This document shows positions 3,306 through 15,347 of a stretch of DNA of 64,000 nucleotides, in pieces (the stretch's first letter is position 1; each line of letters starts with the position of its first letter). This DNA comes from Natrinema halophilum. GTDB taxonomy: Archaea; Halobacteriota; Halobacteria; Halobacteriales; Natrialbaceae. The DNA is taken from contig NZ_CP058601.1 in the NCBI RefSeq assembly GCF_013402815.2, positions 3,348,001-3,412,000 of the forward strand, in the 5' to 3' direction. The translations under genes were made by a program, and so were the position numbers. Under the pieces are notes generated by a model, which saw only the letters and a program-made list of their open reading frames with translations, was not told where the DNA came from and searched no databases.

Positions 3306-3346
3306 TTTACGTGGTTCTGGTCACAAGGTAGAGCTATGACGGGAGA
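3306..3346 (+). repeat. Promoter-like repeat, copy R1
   Basis: First of five same-strand copies of a 41-bp sequence with the common pattern TTTAAGTG.TTCTGGTCAC followed by AAGGTGAAGCTACGA.GGGA. This copy reads TTTACGTG at its TATA-like start and TATGACGGGAGA at its end. Its similarity to R3 extends outward to about 60 bases, including GCCGACGTTTC upstream. It lies between mptA and a small membrane-protein gene, and no reading frame starts from it convincingly. Confidence 0.8.
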
Positions 3347-3439
3347 CGGTTCTACCACAAAATCTTCGTTCGATAGTTGCTACGCTGTGTTTCGACCGTT
3401 TTGTTCGCACGGATATCGATCTCGGTAACGGAACACGGA

Positions 3440-3643
3440 CTACGAGTCCCGCGAGCGTACGGAGAGGTACTCTGCAACCGTCAGCGGGATGCAAAACGCG
3501 AACAGGAGGAGAAACGTCGCACCGACGGCGGTGATCGTCCCGTCTGTACTGTGTACCGCCACGGCGACGGCCAGTATCCCGGTGATGTCTGTGTACGTGA
3601 CGGTCAGTTCCCGTTCGAATAGGGCTGAATGGCGGGCAGCCAT
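3440..3643 (-). CDS. Small two-helix membrane protein
   Basis: The product is 67 residues, starting MAARHSALFERELTVTYTDI. Two hydrophobic stretches follow (about residues 20-31, ITGILAVAVAVH, and 36-57, GTITAVGATFLLLFAFCIPL), then a charged tail SVRSRDS. The start at 3643 is supported by an AT-rich TATA-like TTTATTATCC about 27 bases upstream on the minus strand, which fits leaderless transcription. A longer frame reaching 3727 would run through that promoter. I do not recognise a named family. It lies between repeat copies R1 and R2, with no other gene on its strand nearby. Confidence 0.55.
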   Translation of the reverse strand: MAARHSALFERELTVTYTDITGILAVAVAVHSTDGTITAVGATFLLLFAFCIPLTVAEYLSVRSRDS

Positions 3644-3663
3644 TGTCACACAGTTTAGGGGTT

Positions 3664-3675
3664 GGATAATAAATA
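3664..3675 (-). promoter_or_regulatory. TATA box for the 67-residue membrane protein
   Basis: The plus strand reads GGATAATAAATA, so the minus strand reads TATTTATTATCC. Its centre is about 27 bases from the ATG at 3643, the usual archaeal distance to a leaderless start. Confidence 0.5.
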
Positions 3676-3812
3676 CAAAAGTCGAACTGATCGTCGGCGG
3701 ACCGTCGTGAGTGATCCAGTCGGTCAAGAACGAACTGGACCCGCTCCGGACGGCTCCGCGGGTATTTATTCGATACCGCTTGTCGCGCTGCCATCTCGGA
3801 CTCCGGTCGTGC

Positions 3813-3853
3813 TTTAAGTGCTTCTGGTCACAAGATGAAGCTACGACGGGAGA
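3813..3853 (+). repeat. Promoter-like repeat, copy R2
   Basis: This copy reads TTTAAGTGCTTCTGGTCACA, then AGATGAAGCTACGACGGGAGA. It has the perfect TATA-like TTTAAGT and differs from the common pattern mainly by AAGATG for AAGGTG. Sequence downstream of the repeat is not shared with the other copies. Confidence 0.8.
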
Positions 3854-4096
3854 TCGTTCGCTTCTCGAGGTCGCTTACGCTCGCCAGCGTCGCATCCGGC
3901 GCGAGTAACCCGATCTTCGTCGTGCGGTAGCCGCTTCTTCCCCTTCTCGAACGGCCTTACCGATCGTCTCCAGAACAATACCTCTCTGTTCGTCTGCCGG
4001 ATCTCTCCCGAATGGGCCCTTGTCCGTACTCCAGTTACGCCGTAGATCCGTTCGCGTGCTAGTCGTGGCGAGGTCCGATCCTCGAGCCGACGTTTC

Positions 4097-4137
4097 TTTA
4101 AGTGGTTCTCGTCACAAGGTAGAGTTATGACGGGAGA
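4097..4137 (+). repeat. Promoter-like repeat, copy R3
   Basis: This copy is nearly identical to R1 over about 60 bases (from GCCGACGTTTC through TATGACGGGAGACG). It differs at the TATA-like part (TTTAAGTG rather than TTTACGTG), at one base in TTCTCGTC, and in GAGTTATGA. Confidence 0.8.
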
Positions 4138-4276
4138 CGACTGTTCTCCATTGCTCACGTTTGATAGCCTCGGCCCCGTCTCTCCCGGACGAGTTCGACC
4201 CGGCTGAGACCAATTCTCGATCACGACGAGACGTTTCCGATAGCCCGTCCGATTCGGGACTGACTTGCGTTCGGCC

Positions 4277-4317
4277 TTTAAGTACTTCTGGTCACAAGGT
4301 GAAGCTACGAAGGGCAT
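4277..4317 (+). repeat. Promoter-like repeat, copy R4, upstream of the nucleotidyltransferase gene
   Basis: This copy reads TTTAAGTACTTCTGGTCACA, then AGGTGAAGCTACGAAGGGCA. It ends 51 bases before the ATG of the RlaP-type gene at 4369, so a transcript starting about 25 bases after the TTTAAGT would carry a leader of roughly 65 bases into that gene. Confidence 0.8.
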
Positions 4318-4368
4318 TCGTCACCCGGCCGTTTCGGGTTTCGATTCTGATTTCATCGAGCCCCAGCT

Positions 4369-5289
4369 ATGACTGTCGTTCCGAACCACGTCCGGGAAAC
4401 CGTCGACGACCACCTGACGGAACTCGAGCGCGAGCACGACGTGGTGGTCGCGCTAGCGGTCGCCCGCGGCAGCCGCGCCTGGGGCGCGGCGAGTCCTGGC
4501 AGCGACTACGACGTCGGGTTCGTCTACGCGCCGACGGACCTTCGCCGGTACGCTCACCTCGAGCGACCTCCCGGAACCATCGTCGAGGACCGCGGCGAGT
4601 TTGAGTATCAGGGCTGGGACGTGCGGACGTTCGCGGGCCTGCTCGCCGACTCGAACGATGGGGCGATCGACCTTTTGCGGAGTCCGATCCGCTATCGCAC
4701 CGCCTACGACCCCACGCCTCTGGCCGAATACGTCGAGCGGACGTACAACCCGATCGACCTCTATCACGCGTGGCGCGGGATCGCGACGAGCAACTACCGG
4801 AAGTACATCTCACATCATCTGGTCCGCAATGACGACGAGATCTTCCCGATCCTCGAGACTGACGTCGACTCGTACGTCATCGAGACCGACGACGGGACGG
4901 CGACGGTCGCGGGCGACGACGAGCGGTTCGCGGAGACACAGACGAAGCCGACCGTCAAACGAAACCTCACGATCCTCCGCGCAGCAATGTCCGCGCGCTA
5001 TCTGAAAGCGACCGGTGACCGCGGCGAGCACGACCTTCCTGTGCTCGCATTCGATCGGTTCCTGCGCGAGCAGGCGCCCACCGTGTTCGACGCGGAGCGG
5101 ATCGAGGCAGCCCGAGCATTGCTCGAGCGCAAACAGGCGGGTGAAGGGGCAGTCGAGATCGGCGACACCGTCGGCCGCGAGTTCGCGCAGCCGCCGCGAG
5201 AAATAGATCCCGCGATCCACGCCCGCGACGGCCCCCGTACGACGCAGATAAACGAGTTTATCGACGAGGTACTCGCCGCAGTCCAGTGA
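4369..5289 (+). CDS. Predicted nucleotidyltransferase, RlaP/DUF4111-like (PF10127 type)
   Basis: The product is 306 residues. Residues 29-52 carry the minimal nucleotidyltransferase signature: VARGSRAWGAASPGSDYDVG gives the G-S and D-x-D metal-binding pattern. The rest is mostly helical and contains YHAWRGIATSNYRKYI and TKPTVKRNLTILRAAM, typical of the RlaP family (RNA-ligase-associated predicted nucleotidyltransferases). The substrate is unknown and no RNA ligase gene is next to it. Repeat R4 lies directly upstream and R5 directly downstream, so the gene is framed by the repeat family. Confidence 0.75.
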   Translation: MTVVPNHVRETVDDHLTELEREHDVVVALAVARGSRAWGAASPGSDYDVGFVYAPTDLRRYAHLERPPGTIVEDRGEFEYQGWDVRTFAGLLADSNDGAIDLLRSPIRYRTAYDPTPLAEYVERTYNPIDLYHAWRGIATSNYRKYISHHLVRNDDEIFPILETDVDSYVIETDDGTATVAGDDERFAETQTKPTVKRNLTILRAAMSARYLKATGDRGEHDLPVLAFDRFLREQAPTVFDAERIEAARALLERKQAGEGAVEIGDTVGREFAQPPREIDPAIHARDGPRTTQINEFIDEVLAAVQ

Positions 5290-5592
5290 ATTCGCCCGAT
5301 CGGATTTCTGCCCGTATCTGACAGGTCACCGACCGGATGGTGATTTAAGTGCCTCTGGTCATAAGGTGAAGATACGAAGGGATTTTGACCGGGTGATGCA
5401 ACTCGAGAGCGATGGTACTCGAGATCGCCTCCGATCGTTCGATACGCGTCATCTCGCTGCCGCAGTTGCGCTCGGAACGTGCCGTCACCTCGTTTGGATC
5501 CGCCCGGTATCTATCTGAAAACCTGATAGTCACGCCGAGACGGTACTGAAAGGAGCGAGCCTTTTTCACTCTCCCCCTCTGAGCGACAGACG
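5290..5592. other. Intergenic stretch holding repeat R5
   Basis: About 300 bases between the nucleotidyltransferase and the epsilon-like gene. It holds R5 at its left side and a short T-rich stretch (CCTTTTTCACTC near 5560) just before the next start. I see no gene. Confidence 0.5.
5344..5384 (+). repeat. Promoter-like repeat, copy R5
   Basis: The most divergent copy: TTTAAGTGCCTCTGGTCATA, then AGGTGAAGATACGAAGGGA. It keeps the TATA-like box and the spacing but has CCTC for CTTC and CATAAGG for CACAAGG. Confidence 0.7.
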
Positions 5593-6363
5593 ATGCAAGA
5601 CGACGGTGCCGACCCTGGTCCAGCCGCCGAGGGTGACGTGGCCGTTGCGGACAGCGCCGAGTCCGCCTTCGAACGCGATAGTCGGCTCGAGACGCGGCCC
5701 GGGTCCGGATCGCTCTCACGGGCGGACGTTCAACGCGATTCGACGGTCCGGCGATGGGGCGTCGTCACGCCCAGTGCGACGGTCATCGGCCGTGCAGCGT
5801 CACCCGATGCAGACCTCTCAGAGAGCGTTCGTCGCCTCCACGACGAACAGCACGCGGCGACGCCGGGTTACAGCGAGCGCGCCCATCAGCTCGATCGACT
5901 TCGAACCACGCAGGCGCTGTGTAACGCCCTCGAGGTGACCCCGTGGCAGCGCGATCTGGCGCTCGGCGTCATGGACGAAATCGACCTCACCGAATTCGGC
6001 AGCCAGCGGGCGATTCCGAAGGTCGCACTGGTGGTGATCCGCCACGTCGTCGACATCGATAGACAGCAGTATTTCGGACTCGACGATATCGACGCGCAGT
6101 CGCTGTCGGCCGACCGAATGGAGGAGTTGTTCGCCCGTTATCGAGCCCATGATATCACCGACGAAGAGACGTTCAAGCGACTCGCGGCCGACTACGGGCT
6201 GGATACGACGAATCTGAATCGACTGCGCCGCGTCCTGAAGGCCCAGCTCGAAGACGAACTCCCGGCCTATGGCCGCAACCCGTACCGAGATCCGAATCTG
6301 CCAGACGCGGCGGAATCGGACGTCGAGGGAACCAACGCGGCATCGACCAGCAGCCAGAGCTAA
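5593..6363 (+). CDS. Haloarchaeal RNA polymerase epsilon-like protein
   Basis: The product is 256 residues. The first 50 are acidic and low in complexity. A conserved block then begins RRWGVVTPSATVIGR, followed by a helical domain (about 80-220) with GYSERAHQLDRLRTTQALCN and TEFGSQRAIPKVALVVIRH. This helical core resembles a cyclin/TFB-like fold. Proteins of this kind in haloarchaea are annotated as DNA-directed RNA polymerase subunit epsilon, an accessory protein without a bacterial equivalent. I rely on memory of that family for the name. The transcriptional role is inference. Confidence 0.55.
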   Translation: MQDDGADPGPAAEGDVAVADSAESAFERDSRLETRPGSGSLSRADVQRDSTVRRWGVVTPSATVIGRAASPDADLSESVRRLHDEQHAATPGYSERAHQLDRLRTTQALCNALEVTPWQRDLALGVMDEIDLTEFGSQRAIPKVALVVIRHVVDIDRQQYFGLDDIDAQSLSADRMEELFARYRAHDITDEETFKRLAADYGLDTTNLNRLRRVLKAQLEDELPAYGRNPYRDPNLPDAAESDVEGTNAASTSSQS

Positions 6364-14273: not shown

Positions 14274-14347
14274 GGCATTTCCAGCCCCGTTCCGCCGATA
14301 AAATCGGATCTGTGTCCCTATTCAAGACTGGTTCCATTGTTGCGAGG

Positions 14348-14355
14348 CCTTAAGT
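14348..14355 (+). promoter_or_regulatory. TATA box for the TFB gene
   Basis: CCTTAAGT lies 27 to 34 bases before the ATG at 14382. A transcript starting at the usual distance would have a leader of only a few bases. This also argues against the in-frame ATG at 14337, which lies upstream of the box. Confidence 0.5.
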
Positions 14356-14381
14356 TCTTGCACCGTCGTTACCTACACGAC

Positions 14382-15347
14382 ATGGCTAGTCCACCCCGCC
14401 AACGTGAACGTACTCCTGAAACGACCGAAAAAACGCAGGAACCAGACGAGCGTGAGCGGGTGTGCGACGAGTGTGAGGGGGGAACGCTCGTCAAAAGCGA
14501 GGATCAGGGCGAGCTCGTTTGCGATCAGTGTGGCCTGATCGTCGAGGGGTCGAACATCGATCACGGGCCCGAATGGCGCGCGTTCAATCACTCCGAACGG
14601 CAGAACAAGTCGCGCGTCGGCGCACCGACGACCCAGACCATGCACGACAAGGGTCTGACGACCTCAATCGACTGGAAGAACCAGGATGCGTACGGTCGAT
14701 CCATCTCCTCGGACAAACGAAACCAGATGCGCAGACTGCGAAAGTGGCAAGAGCGCATCCGGACCAAAGACGCCGGCGAACGAAACCTGCAGTTCGCCCT
14801 CTCCGAAACCGATCGGATGGCGTCGTCCCTGGCTATCCCCCGATCCGTCCGCGAGGTCGCCTGCGTCATGTACCGGCGGGCACTCGATGAAGACCTCATC
14901 CGCGGCCGGTCAATCGAGGGCGTCGCGACGAGCACCCTGTATGCCGCCTGTCGCATGGAAGGTATCCCGCGCTCGCTCGAGGAAGTCGCGGCCGTCTCCC
15001 GCGTCGAGCGCAAAGAAATCGGCCGCACGTATCGATACGTCGCTCAGGAACTGGGCCTCGAGATGGAACCGGTCAATCCGAAGAAATACGTCCCGCGGTT
15101 TTGCTCCGAACTCGAACTGTCCGAGGAGGTCCAGGCCAAAGCCAACGAAATCATCGATACGACGACCGAAAAGGGACTTCTCTCCGGCAAATCGCCGACT
15201 GGCTACGCCGCCGCCGCGATCTATGCCGCGTCGCTGCTCTGTAACGAAAAGAAGACTCAGCGGGAGGTCTCCGACGTCGCGCAGGTGACCGAAGTCACCA
15301 TCCGAAATCGGTATCAAGAGCAGATCGAAGCGATGGGCATTCACTAG
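14382..15347 (+). CDS. tfb: Transcription initiation factor IIB (TFB)
   Basis: The product is 321 residues. The zinc ribbon is at about 30-55 ([14 protein letters not shown], then [20 protein letters not shown]). The B-finger region [18 protein letters not shown] follows, then two cyclin-like repeats of about 90 residues each (centred near [12 protein letters not shown]-type and [20 protein letters not shown] segments). The C-terminal [22 protein letters not shown] recognises the BRE. TFB recruits RNA polymerase to TBP-bound promoters. Haloarchaea carry several TFBs, so the number or letter of this paralogue cannot be given. A T-run terminator follows. Confidence 0.95.

Follow-up and report, generated by a model that had tools for sequence, protein, structure and literature searches.

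A promoter-like box repeated in haloarchaeal genomes accompanies the gene for RNA polymerase subunit epsilon

Why does a short stretch of the Natrinema halophilum genome carry five copies of a promoter-like sequence, all facing the same way, and what might read them? The DNA analysed (64,000 nucleotides of contig NZ_CP058601.1, hereafter the window) had received a first-pass annotation that described five same-strand repeats around a nucleotidyltransferase gene, and regarded them either as promoters for short RNAs controlled by a dedicated factor or as a small repeat family carrying its own promoter. A repeat search of the window recovered the repeats as a single direct-repeat family of exactly five copies, all on the + strand, at the positions originally given. 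The copies, here called boxes R1 to R5, start 507, 284, 180 and 1067 nt apart. The relevant features are the following:

3306..3343, + strand: box R1, located between mptA and R2; TATA-like sequence at 3306-3312, predicted start at ~3336, second TTCT element at 3350; mptA-side copies are seen again in relatives
3813..3850, + strand: box R2; predicted start at ~3843, second TTCT element at 3862, AGCG at 3886
4097..4134, + strand: box R3; predicted start at ~4127, second TTCT element at 4144
4277..4314, + strand: box R4, the closest of the copies to the consensus; predicted start at ~4307
4369..5289, + strand: RlaP-family nucleotidyltransferase gene (Pfam PF10127, E=5e-30), embedded in the array
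5344..5381, + strand: box R5, the last unit; predicted start at ~5374; 249 nt upstream of the epsilon start codon
5560..5569, + strand: standard promoter-like sequence CCTTTTTCAC, ~29 nt before the epsilon ATG and apart from box R5
5593..6363, + strand: gene for RNA polymerase subunit epsilon, 256 aa; homologues are so annotated on plasmids, and boxes lie upstream in most loci

When the box consensus was searched with up to 3 mismatches, three of the five copies were matched and no other site in the window, in keeping with the earlier statement that the repeat occurs nowhere else in it; shuffled sequences gave 0.00 matches, and a relaxed box core with up to 6 mismatches gave 0 matches in 818 kb of shuffled sequence. 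The similarity noticed between R1 and R3 over about 60 bases amounts to 93% identity across 59 nt. The five equally oriented copies are genuine, and the motif lies far above chance expectation.

In the box, a TATA-type TTTAAGT precedes both TTCTSGYSACAAGG and a predicted start site at constant spacing. Starts were placed using features of transcription start sites in H. salinarum, namely a TATA centre at about -26, a purine at +1 and a pyrimidine at -1 (PMC6523106). Judged by sequence, the box has the makings of a haloarchaeal core promoter: TTTAAGT, an invariant A at the expected distance and a T before that A. The starts predicted in this way lie ~6 nt downstream of those proposed in the first-pass annotation. 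In an alignment of 249 family copies, information begins ~10 bases before the TATA-like sequence, stays nearly complete between TTTAAGT and the predicted start, and is lost gradually until about base 45, counted from the TATA start.

A search of the genome and of other haloarchaea, as suggested at the outset, detected a sixth, more divergent copy in the same genome (G000:C1:3086823), ~265 kb from the window copies. With up to 3 mismatches the box was found in 104 of the 125 genomes of the window's family, and a relaxed pattern found it in other haloarchaeal families too; reversed-pattern controls gave 0 in both searches. The patterns were derived from the window's family, and divergent forms can escape them. 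A search of a named collection returned 39 stretches, all of which we take to belong to Natrialbaceae genera or to a Natrialbaceae MAG, an assignment made from record titles and general knowledge. Genomes carry about 2 to 14 copies, which return at the same few loci and in the same orientation across species. Of the 385 distinct units in the retrieved loci, 251 were no more than 4.5 kb from epsilon and 355 fell outside long coding-like frames; as the loci were picked by box or epsilon matches, the shares do not stand for whole genomes. Away from epsilon, conserved box loci are found beside mptA, a group with AEC-type transporter, GNAT and ThiM-like genes, CrcB-like genes and a phosphoglucomutase-like gene, all named by eye. 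Tandem units are frequent; their spacing is mostly 93-220 bp, with a mode near 120-145, and they are too short for genes. By its sequence and distribution, the box is a haloarchaea-wide promoter-like element, repeated as short tandem units, about 95-150 bp apart, beside the epsilon gene and present at a few other conserved intergenic loci. No earlier description of the element was found in the literature, and searching papers for the box sequence produced chance matches only.

Conservation had been thought to stop at the zone of transcription start. This view needs correction. Throughout the haloarchaea, most units carry a second TTCT element further on, usually 39-41 or 47-51 bases from the TATA start: it was found in 101 of 111 units outside the window's family (16 in shuffled sequence) and in 238 of 393 units inside it (47 in shuffled sequence). 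A weaker AGYNRC is found near base 70. The folding energy of the units was at the level of shuffled sequence (z ~0), RNAalifold gave no common structure and Rfam no match above threshold, and we discarded a structured RNA on these grounds. No open reading frame is shared by the units, and no frame is kept open. A short conserved peptide was also considered and rejected: ATGACGGG stands at the predicted start in some copies, but ACG takes that place in 72%, and no reading frame is favoured by the stop codons in the way expected of a shared one.

The focus of the first-pass annotation on the nucleotidyltransferase gene is not supported. An RlaP homologue is present in 94 of the 125 family genomes, and genera g9 and g24 have boxes without an RlaP orthologue; an RlaP locus for RNA repair with Y-RNA-like RNAs was rejected for this reason. 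The constant neighbour is instead the epsilon gene (5593-6363). No TATA box was noticed by eye between R4 and the rlaP ATG, and R4 could provide an rlaP mRNA leader of ~60 nt. With no obvious second promoter there, the unit before rlaP may drive rlaP. The gap between R1 and R2 contains a 95-aa membrane-protein-like frame (3440-3727, - strand), while different genes, such as an M50-like peptidase or a glyoxalase-like protein (named by eye), occupy the same gap in other relatives, as if the stretch between units accepted changing cargo.

Epsilon has been recognised as a haloarchaeal polymerase subunit since the 1980s. The window gene was identified by tblastn, with 53-58% identity over 80-99% to four haloarchaeal plasmid genes annotated as "DNA-directed RNA polymerase subunit epsilon"; through this annotation of its relatives, it is a homologue of Halobacterium epsilon (rpoeps, OE_1279R; PMC8305020). 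Sequence searches of Pfam, NCBIfam and PDB gave no match to its product, and no phage homologues of epsilon were found. More distant relatives (26-50% identity, partial), mostly annotated as hypothetical, occur on plasmids of Halobacterium, Halarchaeum, Natrinema, Haladaptatus, Halorussus and Halococcus. Epsilon is present in Hbt. salinarum and a subset of other haloarchaea; it co-purifies with the Halobacterium polymerase, the epsilon-containing enzyme transcribes native templates efficiently, and a 2021 review called its relevance enigmatic (PMC8305020). The biochemistry presents epsilon as a general aid on native templates and not as promoter-specific (PMC8305020). The literature on epsilon knows the protein only as a subunit of the polymerase, and we found no report there of a linked promoter element.

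In most loci of the families examined, including that of one plasmid-borne gene, a box lies ~90-250 nt upstream of epsilon on the same strand. Five epsilon loci of the clade-II genus g69 (family f4) have no recognisable box beside the gene, and the genus has boxes elsewhere. Could the box simply be the core promoter of epsilon? We rejected this option because most epsilon loci seem to have a separate promoter-like element, apparently 25-35 nt before the start codon. A narrow automatic test for that element detected it in 29 of 115 loci (3.6 in shuffled sequence), a low yield due mainly to its missing the Natrialbaceae form CCTTTTTC. A gene for transcription factor B, one of several in the genome, is found at 14337-15347 (+ strand), ~8 kb downstream of the epsilon gene.

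The association between box and epsilon extends well beyond the window. Counting either box pattern and strong epsilon hits, in lists compiled by hand from tables, 392 genomes at the level of the order were divided into 174 with both, 211 with neither, 6 with epsilon only and 1 with the box only. The epsilon-only count is an upper bound because box patterns derived from one family can miss divergent forms. The box-only genome is 87% complete, and no epsilon turned up in it with lenient search settings. Of the genomes of the window's family, 93 have both and 3 neither. The association outside this family has a Fisher p of 3e-64, a value inflated by shared ancestry as phylogeny was not corrected for. 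The three family genomes with neither (G029, G031 and G033) belong to genus g11 and have no convincing epsilon and no box, while two other g11 members keep both; the three are natural near-deletions, useful for comparison. The box is almost never found without epsilon, and these counts show a genetic tie between the two.

Box and epsilon also diverge together, the bases around the predicted start site being the part of the box that changes. A tree of 71 epsilon rows has two main groups, separated by branches with moderate support (88/77 and 88/86). The boxes that accompany one group (type I) end in ...GAAGCTACGAAGG or ...ATAGATACGA, and those of the other (type II) end in ...GTTCGTAGTGAGG or similar, the types being assigned by regular expressions written after seeing the sequences. 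Families f1 and f4 hold both kinds, and in them box type tracks the epsilon clade, not the family. An exception is lineage f14, whose epsilon groups with clade I and whose box is nearer to type II. As linked inheritance could explain the match for neighbours, copies far from epsilon were examined. In g69, a clade II genus, such copies are type II. In f14, the seven distant copies examined carry the lineage's own AAGTAAG-like variant, although another f14 copy is type I; in f17, most distant copies are type I and a few are irregular. Because most distant copies in the few genomes checked carry their own genome's variant, the box is probably read by a trans-acting factor.

Could epsilon itself be that factor? 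An AlphaFold2 model built with 50 homologues has a helical core with pLDDT >90 and an N-terminal part of low confidence. It contains one cyclin-like domain, and no cysteine cluster was seen in the alignment. When residues ~90-223 were compared with known structures by VIA-align, TFIIB/Brf2 came first (best Z 10.3, rmsd 2.4 over 93 residues), and the top rows were all TFIIB/Brf2, with Z ~10 and rmsd 2.4-3.1 over compact alignments of 93-100 residues; cyclins ranked after them. The region matched is the first cyclin repeat of TFIIB. A Z near 10 for a helical protein can reflect a common arrangement, and Foldseek E-values were weak and not significant (best 0.26 and 0.45). No kinship is detected at the sequence level: hhalign of 50 epsilons against 6 TFBs of the own genome gave 0.1% probability, so homology to TFB by sequence was rejected; epsilon has no TFIIB Pfam hit, and no sequence similarity to any DNA-binding family was detected. 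We take the predicted fold as a hint that the core of epsilon may be built like this repeat. When TFIIB is in complex with DNA, the repeat covers the bases immediately downstream of TATA, and it is there that conservation of the box is highest.

A tentative scheme can be proposed in which TBP and TFB would bind the TATA-like box, and epsilon, via its TFIIB-like core, would read the invariant TTCTSGYSACAAGG and the start-site bases, so that the units would be epsilon-dependent promoters. Each unit of an array would then start a short, largely unstructured non-coding RNA, presumably of ~60-110 nt, given the lack of a common open reading frame and the ~120 bp to the next unit; the one ahead of rlaP may serve as the promoter of that gene instead. 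The array may serve as a readout or feedback for epsilon, as the units are unlike the core promoter of the gene, which apparently lies 25-35 nt before the start codon. We regard the chances as evenly balanced that the tandem units are an epsilon-dependent class of promoters starting short unstructured RNAs. The fuller proposal, in which epsilon is a promoter-specificity factor, TFIIB-cyclin-like without detectable sequence kinship, with a private promoter class, short-RNA arrays and feedback on its own gene, is a possible reading that we hold with considerable reserve. Among the early suggestions, that of short-RNA promoters under a dedicated factor is the favoured one, given the strict promoter geometry, tandem units too short for genes, the lack of a shared reading frame, the trans-acting factor implied by unlinked copies with one genome-specific variant, and the adjoining epsilon gene as a candidate for that factor.

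The most serious rival is that the boxes are read by a different regulator, such as a helix-turn-helix protein or a TFB paralogue, and that the epsilon gene is only the best-conserved member of the regulon. Regulators often sit near their targets, the genome has several TFBs with one inside the window, and epsilon does not resemble any DNA-binding family in sequence; co-occurrence would also fit another co-inherited regulator. Such a regulator has to be reconciled, however, with the genus that includes epsilon-less members, in which boxes are gone too, even away from the epsilon locus, and with a box type that follows the epsilon tree: any third gene would have to match epsilon both in its distribution and in its split into two clades. 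We consider this reading unlikely, yet worth keeping in mind. A rather improbable option is that the arrays act as DNA only, as binding sites for epsilon or polymerase involved in titration, silencing or activation of a neighbouring promoter, with no functional transcript. The predicted transcribed parts are indeed unstructured and mostly not conserved, the boxes lie upstream of a separate epsilon promoter, and the second TTCT is similar to the TTCTSG within the box and clusters at 39-41 or 47-51 from the TATA start. Its distance varies by several bases, however, whereas the TATA and start-site geometry is kept exactly, and the unit before rlaP seems positioned to start rlaP mRNA.

Two further explanations fare much worse. 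One is that the box is the 5' part of a structured non-coding RNA gene family, or of Y-RNA-like RNAs of the RlaP locus, an idea raised by the presence of RlaP, a member of an RNA-repair polymerase-beta family, inside the array; the absence of Rfam matches above threshold and of excess folding energy, together with boxes in genera without an RlaP orthologue, makes it highly improbable. The other, and the least credible of all, is a small MITE-like mobile repeat that carries a promoter and spreads by transposition. Multiple copies and the near-identity of R1 and R3 would fit a mobile repeat, but the same loci and orientation recur across species, copy numbers are low, and in an unsystematic look at aligned copies neither terminal inverted repeats nor target duplications stood out. 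The mobile-repeat alternative of the first-pass annotation is not supported.

An epsilon-dependent promoter class would have parallels in the regulons of alternative initiation factors (bacterial sigma factors and archaeal TFB paralogues), where near-identical promoter elements are likewise tied to one candidate factor gene. Unlike in those regulons, what is conserved here extends downstream of TATA as far as the start site, most units are not followed by a gene, and the factor proposed is a polymerase subunit specific to one lineage, without detectable sequence similarity to TFB. Haloarchaeal rRNA promoters can also be tandem, with conserved TATA-to-start regions; a relation with them was rejected, as the region upstream of one rRNA operon of the own genome contained no box match (scores of -19 or lower, compared with at least 25 for true boxes). 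Tandem sibling small RNA genes likewise form head-to-tail units of ~120 bp with near-identical promoters; in contrast, the units described here have no structure or family-wide conserved transcript body, and their RNAs are predicted.

A box that appears, vanishes and changes along with epsilon provides a concrete candidate target for this subunit. If the proposal is true, an archaeal polymerase would possess, in addition to TBP and TFB, a specificity subunit comparable to sigma, and tandem short transcripts would have escaped annotation in many haloarchaea.
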